Shown: piece by piece, positions 9,154 through 37,243 of the stretch | Layout: each line of letters starts with the position of its first letter | Position numbering within the stretch: the first letter of the stretch is position 1 | Source: Sulfurovum sp. enrichment culture clone C5 | GTDB lineage: Bacteria; Campylobacterota; Campylobacteria; Campylobacterales; Sulfurovaceae | Reading direction: 5' to 3' | NCBI GenBank assembly: GCA_001493195.1 | Contig: FAXN01000084.1 | Location: 1-44,016, forward strand | DNA: 44,016 nt | Position numbers and translations under genes: made by a program | The notes under the pieces: generated by a model | Database searches by the model: none | What the model saw: only the letters and a program-made list of their open reading frames with translations | Told to the model about the DNA's origin: nothing

Positions 9154-9618
9154 TTAAATTGTATCTAGCGAGTCCTGTGATGTTAAATGTATTTTTTTTT
9201 GCAATGAACCAAGTTTATTTACCAAACTAGCTGATATTTTTTCTAAATTTTTATAGTAATCATTTGCTAATCTAATATCATTTTCATTAAGATGTTTTTT
9301 CTTTGTTCCAAAAATATTTCCAAAAAAACCTTTTTTTTGTTCACCAAAGTAAATTTTAAAAATTTCAAGATATACATTGTGAAGTTGTGTGTGTAATATT
9401 TCTATCTCAGTAATTGAGTCGCTTAAGGAGTTGTCTATACTACAAAGTTTTTGACATTCACTATAAAGCCATTTTCCAAAATTACATTGTGTAAAGTCAA
9501 CAGGAATAGCATTTTTATCAAATTCGAAACCAAATATTAGCATATGAGCTCTTTGAACCCATCGCAGATGAGCAGCTTTTGCTTGATTTAAATGTTCTAT
9601 TATATCTGTTTTAGTCAT
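9154..9618 (-). CDS. Stand-alone CZB (chemoreceptor zinc-binding) domain protein, copy 1
   Basis: A small soluble 154-aa protein made almost entirely of a CZB domain. The zinc-ligand pattern is complete: His17 in AAHLRWV, Cys45 in QCNFGKWLY, His76 and His80 in LHTQLHNVY. CZB domains bind Zn(II) tightly and sense oxidants such as HOCl or zinc at the ends of chemoreceptors and diguanylate cyclases; here no effector domain is attached. A basic, Phe/Lys-rich link (KKGFFGNIFGTKKKH) leads to a C-terminal helix. The ribosome binding site is AAGGGGG. A paralogue with the same residue numbering lies directly upstream at 9776-10231. Confidence 0.85.
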   Translation of the reverse strand: MTKTDIIEHLNQAKAAHLRWVQRAHMLIFGFEFDKNAIPVDFTQCNFGKWLYSECQKLCSIDNSLSDSITEIEILHTQLHNVYLEIFKIYFGEQKKGFFGNIFGTKKKHLNENDIRLANDYYKNLEKISASLVNKLGSLQKKIHLTSQDSLDTI

Positions 9619-9646
9619 TTTTGCCCCCTTATATTTTTCAAGGCAA

Positions 9647-9652
9647 ATTATA
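9647..9652 (-). promoter_or_regulatory. -10 box of CZB copy 1
   Basis: On the minus strand this reads TATAAT, preceded by AAAAGC, 28 nt before the ATG. It suggests that CZB copy 1 has its own promoter. Confidence 0.5.
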
Positions 9653-9775
9653 GCTTTTATTGATTTAAATAAATATTAATTTAATATTTAAAGATTATTT
9701 TTTTTATTATATATTTATAAGAAAATATTATATATAATATTAGAATATTGTATAGTCTGTGATTAAGATTTATAA

Positions 9776-10231
9776 TTATTTATGAAATCGCCTTGCATTA
9801 TGTAATTTTTTTTGTAGATAACTAAGTTTTATTACCAAATATTCAGATGTGTTTTCTAAATTTCTATAATGTTCATTTGCTATTTTGACTTCATCTTCAT
9901 TTAAACTTTTCTTCTTTTTTTTAAATAATTTTTTGAAAAACCTTTTTTTATCTTCCTCAAAATAAATTTTATAAATTTCAAAATATGAATTATGAAGTTG
10001 TAGATGAAGTCTCTCTATATCAGCAACAATATCTTTTGCAGAATCGCTTATGAGACAAAGTTCTTGACACTCGTTATAAAGCCATTTGCCAAAGATGCAT
10101 TGAGTAGAATCAATGGGGATGGAATCTTTTTCAAATTCAAAACCAAACATTAACATATAGGCTCTTTGAACCCATTGTAAATGAGCGGCTTTAGCTTGAT
10201 TCAATTGTGACATTGTATCAGCTTTTATCAT
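9776..10231 (-). CDS. Stand-alone CZB (chemoreceptor zinc-binding) domain protein, copy 2
   Basis: A 151-aa paralogue of the neighbouring CZB protein. The ligands fall at identical positions: His17 (AAHLQWV), Cys45 (QCIFGKWLY), His76 and His80 (LHLQLHNSY). Two further shared cysteines, 55 and 59, also occur in both copies. The link is even more basic here (KKRFFKKLFKKKKKS). The Shine-Dalgarno position is taken by a run of eight G on the coding strand, which makes expression potentially switchable by slipped-strand errors. The likely role is zinc- or oxidant-dependent binding to a partner such as a chemoreceptor or cyclase; no partner is encoded nearby. Confidence 0.85.
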   Translation of the reverse strand: MIKADTMSQLNQAKAAHLQWVQRAYMLMFGFEFEKDSIPIDSTQCIFGKWLYNECQELCLISDSAKDIVADIERLHLQLHNSYFEIYKIYFEEDKKRFFKKLFKKKKKSLNEDEVKIANEHYRNLENTSEYLVIKLSYLQKKLHNARRFHK

Positions 10232-22228: not shown

Positions 22229-22304
22229 GGCTCGATAGCTCAGTCGGTAGAGCAGCAGACTGAAAATCTGCGTGTCGACGGTTCGATTCCGCCTCGAGCC
22301 ACCA
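22229..22304 (+). tRNA. tRNA-Phe (anticodon GAA)
   Basis: A 76-nt cloverleaf with encoded CCA. The acceptor GGCTCGA pairs with TCGAGCC, the D-arm is GCTCAGTCGGTAGAGC, the anticodon loop CTGAAAA has anticodon GAA, and the T-loop is GGTTCGATTCC. Confidence 0.97.
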
Positions 22305-22405: not shown

Positions 22406-22435
22406 TTGACATTTTTTAATGATGTGTGTTATACT
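22406..22435 (+). promoter_or_regulatory. Porin 1 promoter
   Basis: TTGACA at 22406-22411, 18-bp spacer, TATACT at 22430-22435. A consensus-like -35 box is unusual for this phylum, whose promoters often lack one, and suggests strong expression. Upstream CATTAATTTT is shared with the other three porin promoters. Confidence 0.8.
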
Positions 22436-22467
22436 TGTGGTCATTCAAAACAAAAAAGGAGTATAGA

Positions 22468-23682
22468 ATGAAAAAAACTTTATTACTATCAGTAGTAGCT
22501 TCAGGTCTACTATTTGCAGGCGGAGATATAGCTCCAGTTGAGCCAGCGGTGGTTACACCAGCTCCAGCTCCAGTAGTTGCTGACAGTGGTTGGAAATTTA
22601 CAGGTAAAGCAGTAGTAGCTTATGGTACAGCTGATGTTGGTGCAGGTGATTTATTTGATCAAGATAGTTCATGGGCTAATGCTGGTGTATCTTTGAAAGC
22701 TGAAAACACAGATGTTATCGGTGGTTTAGGTCTTGGTGTTAAACTTGTTGGTCTTGGAACACTTGGTCTTGAAGAAGATGTAGTTTCTGGCGTTTTCCAA
22801 ACAGCTGATGGCAACCTAAACGGTGGTGCTATAACTGAACTATATGCAACTTATGGCATAGGTAATACAAGTATCAAACTTGGTAGACAAGAGCTTCCAA
22901 AAGCACTTTCTCCATTGGCTTACTCTGAAGATACATTTGATTCACTATTTGCTAATACTTATGGTGCAGCACTTGTTGTAAACACAGATCTTCCTAACAC
23001 AGTTCTTGTTGGTGCATGGGTACAAACTGCAAACAGTGGCGCTAACCTAGGCGATTTCAACAAAATCAATGGTGGTAATGGTGTTTGGATGTTAACAGCT
23101 CAAAACAAATCAATCGATGGTTTGACATTGACAGGTTCATTGTATTATGGTCAAGATATTCTTGGTTCTACAGACAATCTTGTAGCTCTATGGGGTGATG
23201 CAGCATTCAATGTAGCTGGTCTTGATGCTGGACTTCAAGTTGGTTCTATAGATACTGGCGACAATACAGTAGCATTTGGTGCTAAAATCGGCGGTAAAGC
23301 AGATATAATCTCTTATGGTCTTGCTGCAACAGATGTTAATGATGAAGGTCTTGGTGTTTTAAATGTTGGACCAATATTGGCTGGTGGACCATCAACAGAC
23401 AATGCTCTATATACAACATTAGAAAACAATGTATTTTATAACAATTATGATTCTACAACATATATGGCAAAAATCGGTGCTGATGTACTTGGTGGTCATC
23501 TATGTCTAGCAGGCGCTTATTCTGATCTTGGCAATGCTTGGGGAATTAATGACTTCACAGAAGTAGATCTTGGTTATACAACAAAAGTTGGTGCAGTTGA
23601 CCTAACTGGTATGTATGTATATAGTGATAATGATACTACTGATTGGAATACACTAAAAGTTAAAGCAGTATATAACTTCTAA
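22468..23682 (+). CDS. Major outer-membrane porin, paralogue 1
   Basis: A 404-aa beta-barrel porin. The signal peptide MKKTLLLSVVASGLLFAGG is followed by a short Pro/Ala stretch (VEPAVVTPAPAPVV) and then alternating beta-strand sequence ending in the outer-membrane C-terminal Phe (VYNF). Shared family blocks are KLGRQELPKALSPLAYSED and MLTAQNKSIDGLTLTGS. It is the most divergent of the four tandem copies: it lacks the EDWNVFKNT segment and has an odd HLCLAGAYS where the others read NLG-AY. GGAG precedes the ATG in the leader; an in-frame upstream start would lie before the signal peptide and is rejected. Confidence 0.9.
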   Translation: MKKTLLLSVVASGLLFAGGDIAPVEPAVVTPAPAPVVADSGWKFTGKAVVAYGTADVGAGDLFDQDSSWANAGVSLKAENTDVIGGLGLGVKLVGLGTLGLEEDVVSGVFQTADGNLNGGAITELYATYGIGNTSIKLGRQELPKALSPLAYSEDTFDSLFANTYGAALVVNTDLPNTVLVGAWVQTANSGANLGDFNKINGGNGVWMLTAQNKSIDGLTLTGSLYYGQDILGSTDNLVALWGDAAFNVAGLDAGLQVGSIDTGDNTVAFGAKIGGKADIISYGLAATDVNDEGLGVLNVGPILAGGPSTDNALYTTLENNVFYNNYDSTTYMAKIGADVLGGHLCLAGAYSDLGNAWGINDFTEVDLGYTTKVGAVDLTGMYVYSDNDTTDWNTLKVKAVYNF

Positions 23683-23713
23683 GAATTTCTTTTCTTAGAG
23701 TTGCTTTATACTC

Positions 23714-23744
23714 AAGCTCAAGACTTCGGTCTTGGGCTTTTTTT
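23714..23744 (+). terminator. Porin 1 terminator
   Basis: An 11-bp stem AAGCTCAAGAC/GTCTTGGGCTT (one G-U pair) with a TTCG tetraloop and a run of seven T. It is shared almost unchanged with porins 3 and 4. Confidence 0.93.
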
Positions 23745-23806
23745 ATGTCAATTTTTCTCCCAAATCCCCTCTTTTTTATCATCCTATTTACTTTTCATTA
23801 ATTTTA

Positions 23807-23836
23807 TTGACATATATTTAAAATATGTGCTATACT
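23807..23836 (+). promoter_or_regulatory. Porin 2 promoter
   Basis: TTGACA at 23807-23812, 18-bp spacer, TATACT at 23831-23836. The leader downstream (CTAATCATATTC) is of the type shared with porin 4. Confidence 0.8.
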
Positions 23837-23866
23837 AATCATATTCAAATATATAAGGGGAAAGAA

Positions 23867-25069
23867 ATGAAAAAAACTTTATTGTTATCAGTAGTAGCTT
23901 CAGGTTTACTATTTGCAGGCGGAGATATAGCTCCAATTGAACCAGCGGTGGTTGCTCCAGTACCAGTAGCTGAAAGCGGTTGGAAATTTAGTGGTCAAGC
24001 GGTAGTTTACTATGAAACAAATGATGGATGGGGATTTAATGATGTTTTTGATCAAGATTCATCTGTGGCAAATGCTGGTATTCAATTAACAGCTACAAAT
24101 GATAACCTTGTTGGTGGAGTTGGATTTGGTGTTCAACTTAATGGTATTGGAACTCTTGGTCTTGAAGAAGACGTAGTTAGTGGTGTAATGCAAAGTGCAA
24201 ATGGTGACCTCAATGGTGGGTACATTTCACAACTTTATTTAACTTATGGCATTAATAATACTAGTTTCAAAGTAGGTCGTCAAGAACTTCCAAAAGCACT
24301 TTCTCCATTTGCTTTTTCGGAAGATTGGAATGTATTTAAAAATACATTCAATGCAGCACTCGTAGTAAATACAGATATACCAAATACTACACTTGTTGGA
24401 GCATGGGTAAGAGACGCTAATCATAATCATTATGGCACCAATATAGGTGATTTTGATAAGCTTAATGGCAATGATGGTATTTGGATGTTAACTGCTCAAA
24501 ATAAATCTATTGATAATTTAACATTGACTGGTTCGTTTTATTATGCCAATGACTATGCAAATATACTTTGGGCTGATGCTGGGTACAATGCGGGCATTGT
24601 CAATATAGCTCTTCAAGGCGGTGCCGTATGGTTTGACGCATCTGGAACAACTGATACCAAAGCATTTGGTGCTAAAGTTAGTAGTAAATTATTTGATAAG
24701 GTTAATGCATCTTTGGCATACTCTTATATAAATGATTCGAATGCTGGTATATTTAATGTAGGAGGCAATAGCTCTGTACTTTATACTGACATGCTTTCAG
24801 ATGAGCAGTATCCTTTTCAACGTCGCTACAATAACAAATTTGTAGTTAGAGCTGATGCTGATGTGCTTGGTGGAAATTTGGGCGCAGCATACAGCTATGA
24901 AGATGCAAAATATTCAACTAATGAAACAATAAAAGAATTCAATCTTTATTATTCAACAAAAATAGCCAATAATATGGACCTGTCTGCTACATATGGATAT
25001 TTGGAGCCTAATTCAATGTCTCCAGATACATTGAATACAATTCGTTTAATAGGCAGATATAATTTCTGA
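23867..25069 (+). CDS. Major outer-membrane porin, paralogue 2
   Basis: A 400-aa porin with the same signal peptide as copy 1 and a shorter proline stretch (IEPAVVAPVPVAES). Blocks VGRQELPKALSPFAFSEDWN, VFKNTFNAALVVNTDIPNT and MLTAQNKSIDNLTLTGSFYY are close to copy 3. It ends in GRYNF. The distal extracellular loops (for example SSVLYTDMLSDEQYPFQRRY) differ from the paralogues. An AAGGGG site precedes the ATG. Its terminator is unlike those of the other three genes. Confidence 0.9.
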   Translation: MKKTLLLSVVASGLLFAGGDIAPIEPAVVAPVPVAESGWKFSGQAVVYYETNDGWGFNDVFDQDSSVANAGIQLTATNDNLVGGVGFGVQLNGIGTLGLEEDVVSGVMQSANGDLNGGYISQLYLTYGINNTSFKVGRQELPKALSPFAFSEDWNVFKNTFNAALVVNTDIPNTTLVGAWVRDANHNHYGTNIGDFDKLNGNDGIWMLTAQNKSIDNLTLTGSFYYANDYANILWADAGYNAGIVNIALQGGAVWFDASGTTDTKAFGAKVSSKLFDKVNASLAYSYINDSNAGIFNVGGNSSVLYTDMLSDEQYPFQRRYNNKFVVRADADVLGGNLGAAYSYEDAKYSTNETIKEFNLYYSTKIANNMDLSATYGYLEPNSMSPDTLNTIRLIGRYNF

Positions 25070-25070
25070 T

Positions 25071-25094
25071 AAAAAGAGGCTTTTGCCTCTTTTT
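25071..25094 (+). terminator. Porin 2 terminator
   Basis: A perfect 10-bp stem AAAAAGAGGC/GCCTCTTTTT with TTTT loop, starting 2 nt after the stop codon. It is not related to the TTCG/TTTG hairpins behind porins 1, 3 and 4. Confidence 0.9.
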
Positions 25095-25153
25095 GTAAAA
25101 AATACTTTAAATCCTCTCTTTTTTATAATTTTATTTACTTTTCATTAATTTTA

Positions 25154-25183
25154 TTGACACACACCTAAAATATGTGCTATACT
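25154..25183 (+). promoter_or_regulatory. Porin 3 promoter
   Basis: TTGACA at 25154-25159, 18-bp spacer, TATACT at 25178-25183, followed by the TGTGGTCATTCAAAAC leader also found for porin 1. Confidence 0.8.
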
Positions 25184-25215
25184 TGTGGTCATTCAAAACA
25201 AAAAAGGAGTATAGA

Positions 25216-26448
25216 ATGAAAAAAACTTTATTACTATCAGTAGTAGCTTCAGGTCTACTATTTGCAGGCGGAGATATAGCTCCAGTTGAGCCAGCGGTGG
25301 TTACACCAGCTCCAGCACCAGCACCAGTTGTTGACAGTGGTTGGAAATTTAGCGGTCAAGCTGTAGTTTACTACCAAACTGATGATTCTTATATTACTTC
25401 AAGAGGCGTAACTTCTCCTCAAGATGATAGTCTTTTTAGTCAAGGTGCATCTGCTGCAAATGCAGGTCTTCAATTGACAGCTACTAATGATGACCTAATC
25501 GCAGGTATCGGTTTTGGTGCTCAAATCAATGGTCTCGGTACTCTTGGTTTAGATGAAGATGTAGTATCTGATGTTATGCAAACAGCAGGTTCAGAACTTA
25601 ATAGTGCATACATTTCACAACTTTACCTAACTTATGGCATTAATAATACAAGTTTCAAAGTTGGTAGACAAGAGCTTCCAAAAGCACTTTCACCATTTGC
25701 TTACTCTGAAGATTGGAATGTATTTAAAAATACATATAATGCAGCACTTGTTGTAAATACAGATATCCCAGACACTGTACTTGTTGGTGCATGGGTAAGA
25801 GATGCTAACTGGAATGGATTGCATGCAGATATGAGTGATTTTGGTAAGCTAAATGGCAATGATGGTGTTTGGATGTTAACAGCTCAAAACAAATCAATAG
25901 CTGATTTGACATTGACTGGTTCATTCTACTATGCTAATGATTTTGCAAATATCCTTTGGGTTGATGCACAGTATAATGCTGGTGTTGCAAACATAGGTCT
26001 TCAAGGTGGTGCTATAATGCCAGATGCTTCTGCTGCTGATGATACAACTGCATTTGGTGCAAAAGTAAGTGGTAAATTTGATATAGTTAATGCTTCTATA
26101 GCTTATACAACGGTAAATGATGGCTCTACACCTATCTTGAACTTTGGTGGATCAAGCTCAGTTCTTTATACTAATACTGTATCTAATGAAATGTTCCCAA
26201 TGATAACAACATGGGATGCTGATAAAGTATTGGTAAAAGCTGATGCAGATGTGCTTGGTGGCAACCTAGGTCTTGCTTATGGTCATACTGATAGTAGCGC
26301 AATCGATAATATCGATGAAATCGAACTTACTTACAAAACTAAGTTAGTAGATGCTATTGATCTTGAAGCTACATACGCTTATGTTGATGCTGATGCTTTT
26401 GCTGATGAAATCAATGGTTTCAGACTTGTAGGTAGATACAACTTCTAA
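25216..26448 (+). CDS. Major outer-membrane porin, paralogue 3
   Basis: A 410-aa porin. The first 70 or so coding bases and the leader are almost identical to those of copy 1, while from WKFSGQAVVYY onwards it follows copy 2. Proline stretch VEPAVVTPAPAPAPVV. It carries VGRQELPKALSPFAYSEDWN, VFKNTYNAALVVNTDIPDT and MLTAQNKSIADLTLTGSFYY, and ends in GRYNF. The mosaic of copy-1-like and copy-2-like parts suggests recombination between paralogues. GGAG precedes the ATG. Confidence 0.9.
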   Translation: MKKTLLLSVVASGLLFAGGDIAPVEPAVVTPAPAPAPVVDSGWKFSGQAVVYYQTDDSYITSRGVTSPQDDSLFSQGASAANAGLQLTATNDDLIAGIGFGAQINGLGTLGLDEDVVSDVMQTAGSELNSAYISQLYLTYGINNTSFKVGRQELPKALSPFAYSEDWNVFKNTYNAALVVNTDIPDTVLVGAWVRDANWNGLHADMSDFGKLNGNDGVWMLTAQNKSIADLTLTGSFYYANDFANILWVDAQYNAGVANIGLQGGAIMPDASAADDTTAFGAKVSGKFDIVNASIAYTTVNDGSTPILNFGGSSSVLYTNTVSNEMFPMITTWDADKVLVKADADVLGGNLGLAYGHTDSSAIDNIDEIELTYKTKLVDAIDLEATYAYVDADAFADEINGFRLVGRYNF

Positions 26449-26479
26449 GAATTTCTTTTCTTGGAGTTGCTTTATACTC

Positions 26480-26509
26480 AAGCCCAAGACTTTGGTCTTG
26501 GGCTTTTTT
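26480..26509 (+). terminator. Porin 3 terminator
   Basis: A perfect 11-bp stem AAGCCCAAGAC/GTCTTGGGCTT with TTTG loop and a T-run. It is homologous to the porin 1 and 4 terminators. Confidence 0.93.
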
Positions 26510-26571
26510 GTGTCAATTTTTCTCATAAATCCCCTCTTTTTTATCATTCTATTTACTTTTCATTAATTTTA

Positions 26572-26601
26572 TTGACATATATTTAAAATATGTGCTATAC
26601 T
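26572..26601 (+). promoter_or_regulatory. Porin 4 promoter
   Basis: TTGACA at 26572-26577, 18-bp spacer, TATACT at 26596-26601, with the CTAATCATATTC leader of porin 2. Confidence 0.8.
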
Positions 26602-26631
26602 AATCATATTCAAATATATAAGGAGTATGGG

Positions 26632-27882
26632 ATGAAAAAAACTTTATTGTTATCAGCAGTAGCTTCAGGTCTACTATTTGCAGGCGGAGATATAGCTCCA
26701 GTTGAACCATCAGTGGTTGCTCCAGTTGCACCAGTGGCTGAATCAGGTTGGAAATTTAGCGGTCAAGGTGTATTTTATTATCAAACTATGAAAGTGGATG
26801 ATGTTAATTTCTTTGACCAAGACGCAGCATCTGCAAATGCAGGCATACAGCTTAGAGCAGTAAATAAAGATTTAATTGCTGGTGTTGGTGTAGGTGTAGA
26901 ACTTTCTGGCATAGGAACGCTTGGATTGGATGAAGATGTAGTATCTTATCCGATGCAAAGTCTAGATAGTGGACTCAATGGCGGATGGGTTTCTCAATTA
27001 TATCTAACTTATGGATTTGGCAATACAGCTATCAAAGTTGGTCGTCAAGAACTTCCAAAATCACTCTCTCCATTTGCTTATTCTGAAGATTGGAATGTAT
27101 TTAAAAACACATTTGATGCTGCATTAATCGTAAATAATGATATTCCAAATACAACAGTAGCACTTGCGTATGTTAAAAATGCAAATTTAAATGGCACAGA
27201 ATCTTCTGATGATTGGTTTGGTGAGTATAGTGATTTTAATGGCATGAATGACTTCAATAGTGTTGCTGATGGGGCATATATGCTAACAGTTCAAAATAAA
27301 TCAATTGATAATACTACCCTTACAGGATCATTTTATGAAATCAAAGATTTGGGCAGAATTTTTTGGGCAGATGCATCGTATGATGCAAGTAGCTTCAATG
27401 TTGGACTTCAAGGTGGAGTATTTAATGCAGATGATGATGATGACTGGAAAGCATACGGTATAAAAGCAGGAACATCATTTGGCCCTGTAAATTTTATGGC
27501 CGCATATTCTGTACTTGACCCTAAAGACTGGGGATGGATGTATCAAGTAGGTGGCACTACATCACCACTTTATACTGATATGATAGCCGATGAGATACTA
27601 AGTGGATATTATTTGCGTTATCCAGATACTAGTGGAGAAAATGTAAAAAAATATAAAATCGCTGCAAATATGGATTTGTTTGGCGGGAATATATCTGCGG
27701 CTTATGGCGTAGCCAAAGGTGCAGATTATGAAGATGATGATCTCAAAGAATTTGATCTTAGTTATACAAAAAATATTGCAAATGACATAAGCCTAACTGC
27801 TACATATGCAAATATTTCTACAACAAGTAATTATGAAAATGGTTTTGACTTACTTCGTTTTGTTGCTAGATACAATTTCTAA
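26632..27882 (+). CDS. Major outer-membrane porin, paralogue 4
   Basis: A 416-aa porin, the longest of the four. Same signal peptide with one change (SAVASG), proline stretch VEPSVVAPVAPVAES, then VGRQELPKSLSPFAYSEDWN and VFKNTFDAALIVNNDIPNT. It differs from the others by a longer acidic loop (SSDDWFGEYSDFNGMNDF) and MLTVQNKSIDNTTLTGSFYE. It ends in ARYNF. The ribosome binding site is AAGGAG. Sequence divergence sits mainly in presumed surface loops, which would change pore selectivity or exposure to phage and immune-type pressures. Confidence 0.9.
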   Translation: MKKTLLLSAVASGLLFAGGDIAPVEPSVVAPVAPVAESGWKFSGQGVFYYQTMKVDDVNFFDQDAASANAGIQLRAVNKDLIAGVGVGVELSGIGTLGLDEDVVSYPMQSLDSGLNGGWVSQLYLTYGFGNTAIKVGRQELPKSLSPFAYSEDWNVFKNTFDAALIVNNDIPNTTVALAYVKNANLNGTESSDDWFGEYSDFNGMNDFNSVADGAYMLTVQNKSIDNTTLTGSFYEIKDLGRIFWADASYDASSFNVGLQGGVFNADDDDDWKAYGIKAGTSFGPVNFMAAYSVLDPKDWGWMYQVGGTTSPLYTDMIADEILSGYYLRYPDTSGENVKKYKIAANMDLFGGNISAAYGVAKGADYEDDDLKEFDLSYTKNIANDISLTATYANISTTSNYENGFDLLRFVARYNF

Positions 27883-27913
27883 GATTTTCTTTTCTTAGGG
27901 GTGCTTTATACTC

Positions 27914-27944
27914 AAGCTCAAGACTTCGGTCTTGGGCTTTTTTT
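27914..27944 (+). terminator. Porin 4 terminator
   Basis: Stem AAGCTCAAGAC/GTCTTGGGCTT with TTCG loop and T-run, identical in sequence to the porin 1 terminator. Confidence 0.93.
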
Positions 27945-27988: not shown

Positions 27989-28540
27989 ATGAGATTTTTT
28001 GAACCAGATTATCATTTTAATGTAGCCAATATAGTTACATTTTTAAATATCACTTGCGGAGTGTTTGCTATATATCTAGTCACGCAACACAATTTTTTGC
28101 TTGCAGCTATAGTTGCTTGGATTGCTGGAGCTTTAGACATAATAGATGGTAAAGTAGCACGCCATTATGGATTATCAACAGAATTTGGTATCCAACTAGA
28201 TAGCTTTGCTGACTTTTTGTCATTTGTAGTTATGCCATCATTTTTTATGTTTTATGCAGTTAGTTCAACAGATGATATATCAAAGTTTATCTTAGGTATT
28301 GTACTCATTTGGTATATCATAAGTGGATTGAGACGGCTTGTGACATTCAATCTTAAAAGCGATGCAGGCGAAGTAGCAAAACACTTTGAAGGTGTTCCTA
28401 CGCCTCTTGGGGCTATACTTCTTTGGATTCTTTGGCTTTTATATATAAATGGAGTTGTAACAAGTGTATATATTGTAATATGTTTCGTATTACTTATAGC
28501 GTATTTGTTAAACTCTAAAGTTAAAATACCACATTTGTAG
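27989..28540 (+). CDS. pssA: CDP-diacylglycerol-serine O-phosphatidyltransferase
   Basis: Makes phosphatidylserine, the precursor of phosphatidylethanolamine, in the inner membrane. 183 aa, short for the family, with several hydrophobic segments. The CDP-alcohol phosphatidyltransferase motif is intact: DGKVARHYG, then GIQLDSFADF, giving the DGxxAR...G...D...D pattern. The start has no ribosome binding site but a TATAAT box 5 nt upstream. mqnP follows after 6 nt, so both are probably co-transcribed. Confidence 0.92.
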   Translation: MRFFEPDYHFNVANIVTFLNITCGVFAIYLVTQHNFLLAAIVAWIAGALDIIDGKVARHYGLSTEFGIQLDSFADFLSFVVMPSFFMFYAVSSTDDISKFILGIVLIWYIISGLRRLVTFNLKSDAGEVAKHFEGVPTPLGAILLWILWLLYINGVVTSVYIVICFVLLIAYLLNSKVKIPHL

Positions 28541-34915: not shown

Positions 34916-37243
34916 TTAACCTTTTCTAACTTGAAGTTCTTCAACTATGTTGCGCGTGATTATATCAGATTTTTTATCTATTTTTGTTGATATTTTTTCT
35001 ATCCATTGCGACTCAGATACTATGATATCATATTTTGTATTTTGTATTTTTTCATAGATACTGTCAAGATTATTTGTTTCATCAACATCATATCCCATAT
35101 TTGAGGCAACTTTTGAAATGATTTTATTTTCTAAATCAAACTCTTTTGCAACTAATATTTTTTGATTTTCTTTTGGTTCAGCTTTGACTTCAGCTTTTGG
35201 TTCTGTTTTTATTTCAACTTTTGGTTCTGCTTTTGGTTCAGCTTTGACTTCAGCTTTGACTTCAGCTTTGACTTCAGCTTTGACTTCAGCTTTTGGTTCT
35301 GCTTCAGCTTTAACTTCAGCATTGCCCTCTTCATCTTGAAGTTTTACTTTATTGCTAATAAATTTATTCAAGATATAAAGCAATTCTGTTGCTTGAATAG
35401 GTTTTGTAATATACTCATCCATTCCTTCATTTAAGAATCTTTCTCTATCGCCTTTTAATGCATTAGCTGTCAATGCGATGATAGGTACATGTCTCAAATC
35501 CTCATCTTCTTCATAGTCCAATATTTCATGTGTTGATTCAACACCATCCATTACTGGCATTTGAATATCCATAAAAATCAAATCAAAATCTTGATGATTT
35601 CTTCTTTGCTCAAATGCTTCTAGACCATTATTTGCAACAACTACTTTTAGTCCATAATCTGATAGTACTTTCAAGATTAATTTTTGATTTATTGCATTAT
35701 CTTCCGCAACCAATACTTTAGCATCATATCTTGCTTTTAGATTTATAGCTTGAGATTTATCCTCTTTTACTTGTGTTCTATCTTTTGTAAGGATATCTTT
35801 TATTTTAGACAAAGTAACGGGTTTAAATACTATATTATTCATAGTTAGACCCATTTTTTGAAGTTCATCTCTGTTGGTTACTTTACTAAATACAACCAAT
35901 TTCTTTTTATCTAGATGATTAATCAAAGATGTAGAATTTGTTTCATTTAGTTTATCATAATCCACCAAGAAGAAGTCAGGTTTAAAGTTTTGTCTTACAC
36001 TGTCAAGTTCTGCATCCGTATCAAAATAATCCAATTTGGCATTGTAATATTTAAGATATCTATCCAAGTACTCTTCCAAAACAGATGGAGTTAGTTTGTT
36101 TTGGTGTAGTGCTACAGAGATATTGAGATTTTCATGTTTATCACCTTCTATATTTATCTCTTCTATTGGTAGAGTTAGATAAAAAATAGTACCCCTATCT
36201 TTTGCACTTTCAACTTCAAGTTTACCGCCCATAATTTGAGCATATTCTTTAGAAATAGTAAGACCAAGACCTGTTCCCCCAAATTTTCTAGTAACTGTAT
36301 TATCAGCTTGAGAAAATGCTTCAAATATTTTTTCAGCTTGTTCTTTTGTCATACCGACACCATTGTCTTGAATTTTAACAATAAGGGTTGATATGCCAAT
36401 AGTATCTGTTTCTAAATTTTGAACTTTATTTACCTCAACATTAATTTGACCATGTGGGTTTGTAAATTTAACCGCATTACTAAGAAGATTTATCAAAATC
36501 TCTTTAATTTTGGTTGGATCGCCTTTTAGTTTTTCACTAATAGTAGGATCAATAAAATAGTTGAGTTCTATATCTTTTTCAGAAGCACGAACTGCATATG
36601 TTTCCACTGTGCTGTCAAATTCTTCATGTGTATCAAAGATAATATGTTCAACATCAACTTTGTTACTTTCAATTTTTGACAAATCAAGTATGCTGTTGAT
36701 AATTTCAAGTAAGTTTTCTGAGCTTTTTGTAATAATTGATAAAAACTCTTTTTGCTCATCATTTAAATCTGTACTTTTAAGAAGTTCTGTAAAACCAACA
36801 ATACCATTTAGTGGTGTTCTTATCTCGTGTGACATATTTGCTAAGAAAAGAGATTTTGATTCATTTGCTTGAAGCGCTAACTCTTTATCTTGTTTTGAAT
36901 TTTCAATAAGTGTTTTAAGTTGGTGATATACATTACCTATATCAGTATGTGTGTCTAGAGATAATTTCTTTTTCTCTTCTTCTGTTAAGTTTTCAAAAGC
37001 ATCAAAAATGATTTTTTTGAGCTCCATATTGTTTTTAAGTTCTGCTTGATCTGTTTGGTAACCAAAAGTTAAAAGTATCAAACCAATAGTCAATAAAGAA
37101 CCAGATATTGCAAATAGTACCATTTGCTCTTGAGGGTTTGTGCCTTTGAAAATATAAGCATCATAGCCCATGTACCCAGCGAGTACCATCATTAACAAAA
37201 TTGGGAAAAGGCTTATTAACTGTAATCTACTATGAATATTCAT
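34916..37243 (-). CDS. Membrane hybrid histidine kinase with receiver domains
   Basis: A 775-aa sensor kinase. Two N-terminal membrane helices (about 9-27 and 42-60) with almost no periplasmic loop are followed by a HisKA domain with phospho-acceptor His139 in MSHEIRTPLNGIVGF. The ATPase domain has NLLSNAVKFTN, DNGVGM and FGGTGLGLTISKE. A degenerate receiver lacking a clear Asp comes next, then a complete receiver with LVAEDNAINQ, LIFMDIQMPVMDG and ITKPIQATEL. A Lys/Glu/Val/Ala-repeat linker leads to a final receiver-like domain (DYDIIVSES) with no obvious phospho-Asp. The minimal periplasmic part suggests cytoplasmic or membrane-redox sensing through the PAS partner. AAGGAG precedes the ATG. 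Confidence 0.92.
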   Translation of the reverse strand: MNIHSRLQLISLFPILLMMVLAGYMGYDAYIFKGTNPQEQMVLFAISGSLLTIGLILLTFGYQTDQAELKNNMELKKIIFDAFENLTEEEKKKLSLDTHTDIGNVYHQLKTLIENSKQDKELALQANESKSLFLANMSHEIRTPLNGIVGFTELLKSTDLNDEQKEFLSIITKSSENLLEIINSILDLSKIESNKVDVEHIIFDTHEEFDSTVETYAVRASEKDIELNYFIDPTISEKLKGDPTKIKEILINLLSNAVKFTNPHGQINVEVNKVQNLETDTIGISTLIVKIQDNGVGMTKEQAEKIFEAFSQADNTVTRKFGGTGLGLTISKEYAQIMGGKLEVESAKDRGTIFYLTLPIEEINIEGDKHENLNISVALHQNKLTPSVLEEYLDRYLKYYNAKLDYFDTDAELDSVRQNFKPDFFLVDYDKLNETNSTSLINHLDKKKLVVFSKVTNRDELQKMGLTMNNIVFKPVTLSKIKDILTKDRTQVKEDKSQAINLKARYDAKVLVAEDNAINQKLILKVLSDYGLKVVVANNGLEAFEQRRNHQDFDLIFMDIQMPVMDGVESTHEILDYEEDEDLRHVPIIALTANALKGDRERFLNEGMDEYITKPIQATELLYILNKFISNKVKLQDEEGNAEVKAEAEPKAEVKAEVKAEVKAEVKAEPKAEPKVEIKTEPKAEVKAEPKENQKILVAKEFDLENKIISKVASNMGYDVDETNNLDSIYEKIQNTKYDIIVSESQWIEKISTKIDKKSDIITRNIVEELQVRKG
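35241..35288. repeat. 4 x 12-bp tandem repeat inside the hybrid kinase gene
   Basis: Four perfect copies of GCTTTGACTTCA (plus strand) encode the Lys-Ala-Glu-Val periods of the linker before the last receiver-like domain. Imperfect copies continue on both sides from about 35173 to 35319. The 12-bp unit keeps the frame whatever the copy number. Confidence 0.9.

Follow-up and report, generated by a model that had tools for sequence, protein, structure and literature searches.

The four tandem porin genes of this Sulfurovum contig are best read as old, separately descended barrels standing in one array, with 5′ modules and spacers homogenised by gene conversion within the genome, an explanation that we hold to be likely. 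The 5′ ends of these genes are decoupled from the barrels that follow them, the shared tracts have definite limits, the pattern recurs elsewhere, and in one related genome a porin has been inserted at a new locus. The converted module would consist of the -10 box, a leader of about 30 nt, the signal peptide and a disordered GGDIAPVEP/Pro-Ala linker, and the spacer between terminator and promoter would likewise have been homogenised within the genome. Such a shared expression and export module may allow different barrels to be made from the same start, with pore and loops turning over while expression is kept.

Organization of the array and predicted fold of its porins

The window, by which we mean the whole 44,016-nucleotide stretch analysed, makes up a single contig of a draft assembly of 1.6 Mb (105 contigs, 92.9% complete), to which Sulfurovum MAGs are the nearest of the named relatives available for comparison. 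Four porin genes encoding 400–416 aa lie head to tail at 22468–27882, flanked by tRNA-Phe and pssA (Table 1). A macA-macB-tolC-like operon precedes the tRNA on the left and pssA- and ubiA-like genes follow on the right, these gene names being readings of the translations. Six full-length members of the porin family, each with a promoter and an open frame, are present in the source genome, along with two further, distant porins; a second porin-family pair lies on contig C41 (locus L009). In this draft genome the order of the array depends on correct resolution of the 75-bp and 139-bp repeats during assembly. Misassembly was considered, and by reasoning only one path through the 139-bp repeat is possible if reads span the 75-bp repeat. 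In an Rfam scan the tRNA was the single match to pass its gathering score. Weak, sub-threshold suhB matches just 3′ of P1 and P3 (window 23681–23752 and 26447–26518) are perhaps terminators only. Elsewhere in the window are a hybrid sensor kinase (34916–37243), in which a KAEVKAEPKAE repeat linker joins the receiver to the C-terminal domain, and two similar tandem proteins of ~150 aa (9154–10231) that by eye resemble CZB-type sensory domains.

Table 1. Coordinates of the porin array and its neighbours in the window
Feature	Position	Strand	Basis
tRNA-Phe(GAA)	22229..22304	+	ARAGORN; synteny: beside a porin in many relatives
P1 promoter, TTGACA-18-TATACT	22406..22435	+	consensus scan
139-bp block: -10 box, class A leader, signal peptide and linker of P1; identical to 25178-25316	22430..22568	+	exact repeat search; permutation p=0.001
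Porin P1, 404 aa, codon-adaptation z 8.6	22468..23682	+	translation
Terminator 1	23714..23739	+	
223-nt spacer and P2 5′ end, 94% to 26504-26726	23739..23961	+	sequence comparison
P2 promoter, TTGACA-18-TATACT, then class B leader	23807..23836	+	consensus scan
Porin P2, 400 aa, codon-adaptation z 1.3; barrel with C41-type-locus porins	23867..25069	+	translation; tree
Terminator-like hairpin 2, AAAAAGAGGC-TTTT-GCCTCTTTTT, unlike the other three	25071..25094	+	read from sequence; flank comparison
P3 promoter, TTGACA-18-TATACT; upstream P2/P4-like, P1-like from -10 box on	25154..25183	+	consensus scan; permutation test
139-bp block: class A leader and 5′ module of P3; identical to 22430-22568	25178..25316	+	exact repeat search; permutation p=0.001
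Porin P3, 410 aa, codon-adaptation z 6.3; barrel ortholog is the G008 pssA-adjacent porin	25216..26448	+	translation; tree; model
Terminator 3	26480..26505	+	
Spacer and P4 5′ end, 94% to 23739-23961	26504..26726	+	sequence comparison
P4 promoter, TTGACA-18-TATACT, then class B leader	26572..26601	+	consensus scan
Porin P4, 416 aa, codon-adaptation z 2.2; barrel ortholog is a G008 porin at another locus	26632..27882	+	translation; tree
Terminator 4	27914..27939	+	
pssA-like gene, right neighbour kept in relatives	27989..28540	+	synteny; name by reading translation

A preliminary description of this DNA had assigned each gene its own promoter and had matched the leaders of P1 with P3 and of P2 with P4, and both statements hold. 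The four promoters are the region's four best matches to TTGACA-18-TATACT; the first and third leaders are identical within an exact repeat that starts at the -10 box and reaches roughly codon 34, and the second and fourth share a 75-bp exact repeat (23784–23858 = 26549–26623) within the 94% block. Homology among terminators 1, 3 and 4 but not 2, also part of that description, is borne out by the 3′ flanks (76–94% mutual identity vs 51–68% for flank 2): the three are strong hairpins of one kind and the P2 hairpin differs, being similar to the hairpin after the P3 ortholog of the nearest genome, G008. Hairpins of the GGC-TTTT-GCC type are common after porins in these genomes. The first 78 coding nucleotides are 94–100% identical across the four genes, compared with 55–70% for the barrels (DNA), and P3 does begin like P1 (100% over these 78 nt) and continue nearer to P2 (70% vs 64% nt in the barrel). 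All four signal peptides contain SGLLFAGG. In the source genome the GGDIAPVEP DNA motif is confined to five of the six porins, with PIE in P2.

The fold is that of an OprD/Occ- or MOMP-like 18-strand barrel, as judged from modelling, and a channel is predicted. An AlphaFold model of P3 with 34 relatives (pLDDT 83.5, pTM 0.80) matched OccK8 (4frx; E 1.5e-16) and MOMP (5ldv; E 2.8e-14) with TM of about 0.65–0.7. Sequence searches were less informative: for the porins Pfam gave nothing above gathering score (sub-threshold Porin_4 and Alginate_exp, no Campylo_MOMP match), the NCBIfam Opr models NF033922 and NF033923 stayed below their cut-offs of 100 and 150 bits (best P3, 56.2 bits of 100), and a sequence search of solved structures yielded no match to the porins. 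In the model residues 1–38 are disordered and the first barrel strand starts at residue 43, so the conversion tract would end just before the barrel. The expectation that surface loops have diverged is supported in the long predicted loops 1, 7 and 13, where identity across the four porins falls to 0.32–0.45 with changes in length; several short or C-terminal turns are at 0.04–0.44, and loops 3 and 5 are the least divergent (0.71–0.83). The assignment of loops as outward-facing is a prediction.

Gene starts and barrels within and between genomes

Comparison with related genomes, one per species, indicates that the first 78 coding nucleotides are more alike within genomes than between them (87% vs 78%, permutation p=1e-4), whereas barrels are not (57% vs 57%, p=0.43). 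The same contrast is present at silent sites. Silent divergence in the array is 0.10 over codons 1–26 and 0.40 in the barrels; within genomes it is 0.20 at the start and 0.38 in the barrel, and between genomes of the genus 0.43 and 0.41. P1 and P3 have 0/25 silent differences over codons 1–26, against 0.29 in the barrel of the P3 ortholog pair, and P4 is closest to its G008 ortholog in the barrel (87%), less so at the start (79%) and least in the leader (42%).

An explanation that dispenses with conversion, and that we consider unlikely, is that selection on the nucleotides of leader and signal peptide, for translation start or export, keeps the starts alike. More distant Sulfurovum lend it some weight, as their first codons are silently conserved between genomes (0.20 vs 0.38 in the barrel). 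Within the genus, however, starts from different genomes are as diverged as barrels, which argues against any special silent constraint there; likeness is restricted to genes of the same genome, and the class B spacers and leaders have been copied too. In the more distant group (L061–L075) the first 45 coding nucleotides of porins are near-identical between genomes, silent sites included, and the barrels very different, a pattern that may reflect strong constraint or between-species exchange.

The proposal of gene conversion at the 5′ end is therefore upheld by the silent-codon contrast between start and barrel, and also by a GENECONV-like permutation test, which identified a P1–P3 run from -35 to +138 and a P2–P4 run from -75 to -9 (both p=0.001). 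Run on the four coding sequences by themselves, the test failed to detect the 5′ tract, since there is hardly any variation among their starts; detection depended on including upstream bases and sequences from other genomes. Conversion runs were found in G000, G006 (-6 to +169), G008 and G010, those of G010 being between loci on different contigs, and the tRNA-Phe-adjacent gene of G008 has STLIFAGG in its signal peptide, the same as in G006. A barrel-wide conversion of P3 by P1 was considered and dropped, there being no detectable exchange (23 vs 21 silent codons). The C41 porin pair (L009:5439–8107) has a conversion tract within the barrel, at about +586 to +698 (p=0.003).

Homogenisation of 5′ ends, as far as sequence comparison can tell, recurs elsewhere in the genus and also in a tandem family of unrelated outer-membrane proteins. 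Members of this OmpA-like small-barrel family (Pfam PF13505/PF01389) in G001, G002 and G009 share the GGDIAPVEP linker, and their silent differences are 0.18 within vs 0.39 between genomes at the start and 0.31 vs 0.40 in the barrel. The GGDIAPVEP and Pro-rich linker follows the signal peptide in both porins and OmpA-like barrels (L049:2713–6850, L050:3423–6324, L051:3992–7834; L085:7998–8564). No ComEC-type Competence domain was found in the draft source genome, which leaves a natural transformation route and outside donors unsupported.

Barrel descent, leader class and relocation

A tree of 35 barrels, with signal and linker removed, places the members of the array apart. P3 pairs with the pssA-adjacent porin of G008 (100% bootstrap; 88%), P4 pairs with a porin found elsewhere in G008 (100% bootstrap; 87%), and P2 groups with C41-type porins; P1 pairs with the pssA-adjacent porin of G010 (100% bootstrap), a union of two long branches to be read with care. 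AU tests on a genus-only barrel tree rejected P1+P3 (p=0.012), P2+P3 (p=8e-4), P2+P4 (p=4e-7) and a clade of all four array genes (p~2e-40). The barrel lineages of the array are thus, on the trees, older than the split from G008 and of separate descent, and a single branching order for 5′ ends and barrels is contradicted, as barrel trees and 5′ identities disagree.

These results bear most directly on the suggestion that a two-gene unit was duplicated (P1-P2 giving P3-P4) and then altered by local gene conversion. Spacers 1-2 and 3-4, terminators and leaders do alternate as such a duplication would predict. The barrels nevertheless reject both expected pairings, terminator 4 is of type 1 rather than type 2, and P3 and P4, each with its own G008 ortholog, parted from the others before the G008 split, so pair duplication cannot have made the array. 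It could survive only with later complete replacement of both barrels, and we regard it as very unlikely. Only the spacer, from terminator 1 or 3 to the start of gene 2 or 4, behaves in sequence like a duplicated unit. Under homogenisation of separately descended genes, P3 would have taken its class A leader from P1 once this lineage and that of G008 had separated.

The exact P1/P3 leader (TATACTTGTGGTCATTCAAAAC...AGGAGTATAGA) is present at the tRNA-Phe-adjacent gene of five relatives (G001, G002, G004, G007 and G009) and in G008 at a contig end beside tRNA-Phe. The five full-length genes that carry it have codon-adaptation z of 4.9–8.6 relative to background codon choice, as against -0.6 to 5.8 for thirteen other genes (Mann-Whitney p=0.0005, in a comparison that includes genes partly related to each other). 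Exceptions are the G010 pssA-adjacent gene, with z 5.8 and no P1/P3 leader, and two near-matching leaders with z about 1; the G008 ortholog of P3 has z 4.0. Since the class A leader recurs widely beside tRNA-Phe and accompanies the highest codon adaptation, it is probably P1 and P3 that are abundant, and P2 and P4 may be expressed at lower levels or conditionally. The leader common to P1 and the tRNA-Phe-position porins of relatives would then be a high-expression module. A bolder reading for Sulfurovum-type bacteria, possible if on balance doubtful, is that promoter/leader, signal peptide and GGDIAPVEP linker form an exchangeable cassette for expression and export, swapped from barrel to barrel by gene conversion at the fixed tRNA-Phe site so as to set the major porin, with the same linker and 5′ homogenisation in the unrelated OmpA-like family.

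Single porin genes do relocate, as a P4-type porin of G008 lies between ptsI-like and EIIC-like PTS genes (L041:6906–8450). These two genes are adjacent or overlapping, and the site empty, in the ten other genomes of the genus, the source genome included, and about 30 nt of the ptsI end can be read on both sides of the insert. The array of G008 is interrupted by contig breaks in the assembly. In G006 an AAA_14 ATPase gene (L042:8515–9708; DUF4143 match below cut-off) lies between the two tRNA-Phe-locus porins.

Different barrels occupy one conserved tRNA-Phe-side site in different genomes and loops are the most variable parts, both of which would be expected if barrels were actively switched within the population by phase or antigenic variation. 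Such a system is highly improbable here: each of the four genes has an intact frame and a promoter to itself, a family search of the source genome found no promoterless, silent or partial donor copies of porins, no invertible element or simple-repeat tract was noticed, and the P1 and P3 barrels have not detectably exchanged. The idea of a reservoir for outer-membrane variation consequently remains plausible as slow evolutionary turnover, but there is no sign of a switching mechanism at this locus.

Significance and comparison with known systems

The array may offer a clean case of regulation and export signal evolving, through gene conversion, apart from the protein that they drive, with a tract that would end at the linker ahead of the first barrel strand. 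It would also permit prediction, from sequence, of which paralogous porin is abundant, and the array porins are candidate main pores of environmentally common sulfur oxidisers. A warning follows for trees and orthology calls based on porin N-termini, and for draft assemblies of such loci, which will mislead.

The ingredients are ordinary and the arrangement unusually clear. Our literature search, incomplete in coverage, found no description of 5′-module gene conversion in Sulfurovum. Several OprD-like porins, of which two are highly expressed and bear consecutive locus tags, are described in a report on Sulfurovum indicum ST-419, which proposes a role in sulfur uptake (PMC10045233); on that description the genome resembles ours in having multiple OprD-like porins. 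The array porins share the 18-strand barrel with Pseudomonas OprD/Occ and Campylobacter jejuni MOMP, OccK8, other Occ proteins and MOMP being the best structural matches, but differ from them in having only 12–17% identity, an added disordered GGDIAPVEP/Pro-Ala linker, and a tandem arrangement with common 5′ modules.

The closest precedent is the concerted evolution of babA/babB and homA/homB in Helicobacter pylori, where the 3′ segment is concerted within strains and the 5′ part is not, for which gene conversion has been credited (PMC3960876). Both cases come from the same phylum and involve outer-membrane protein paralogs in which conversion would keep one segment more similar inside a genome than across genomes while the rest diverges. 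The polarity is reversed in the porin array: concerted evolution affects the 5′ end, promoter, leader and signal peptide included, whereas the barrels diverge, and on the 3′ side just a short terminator region is shared. The array further differs from bab and hom in lying in cis, in tandem, in a free-living sulfur oxidiser.
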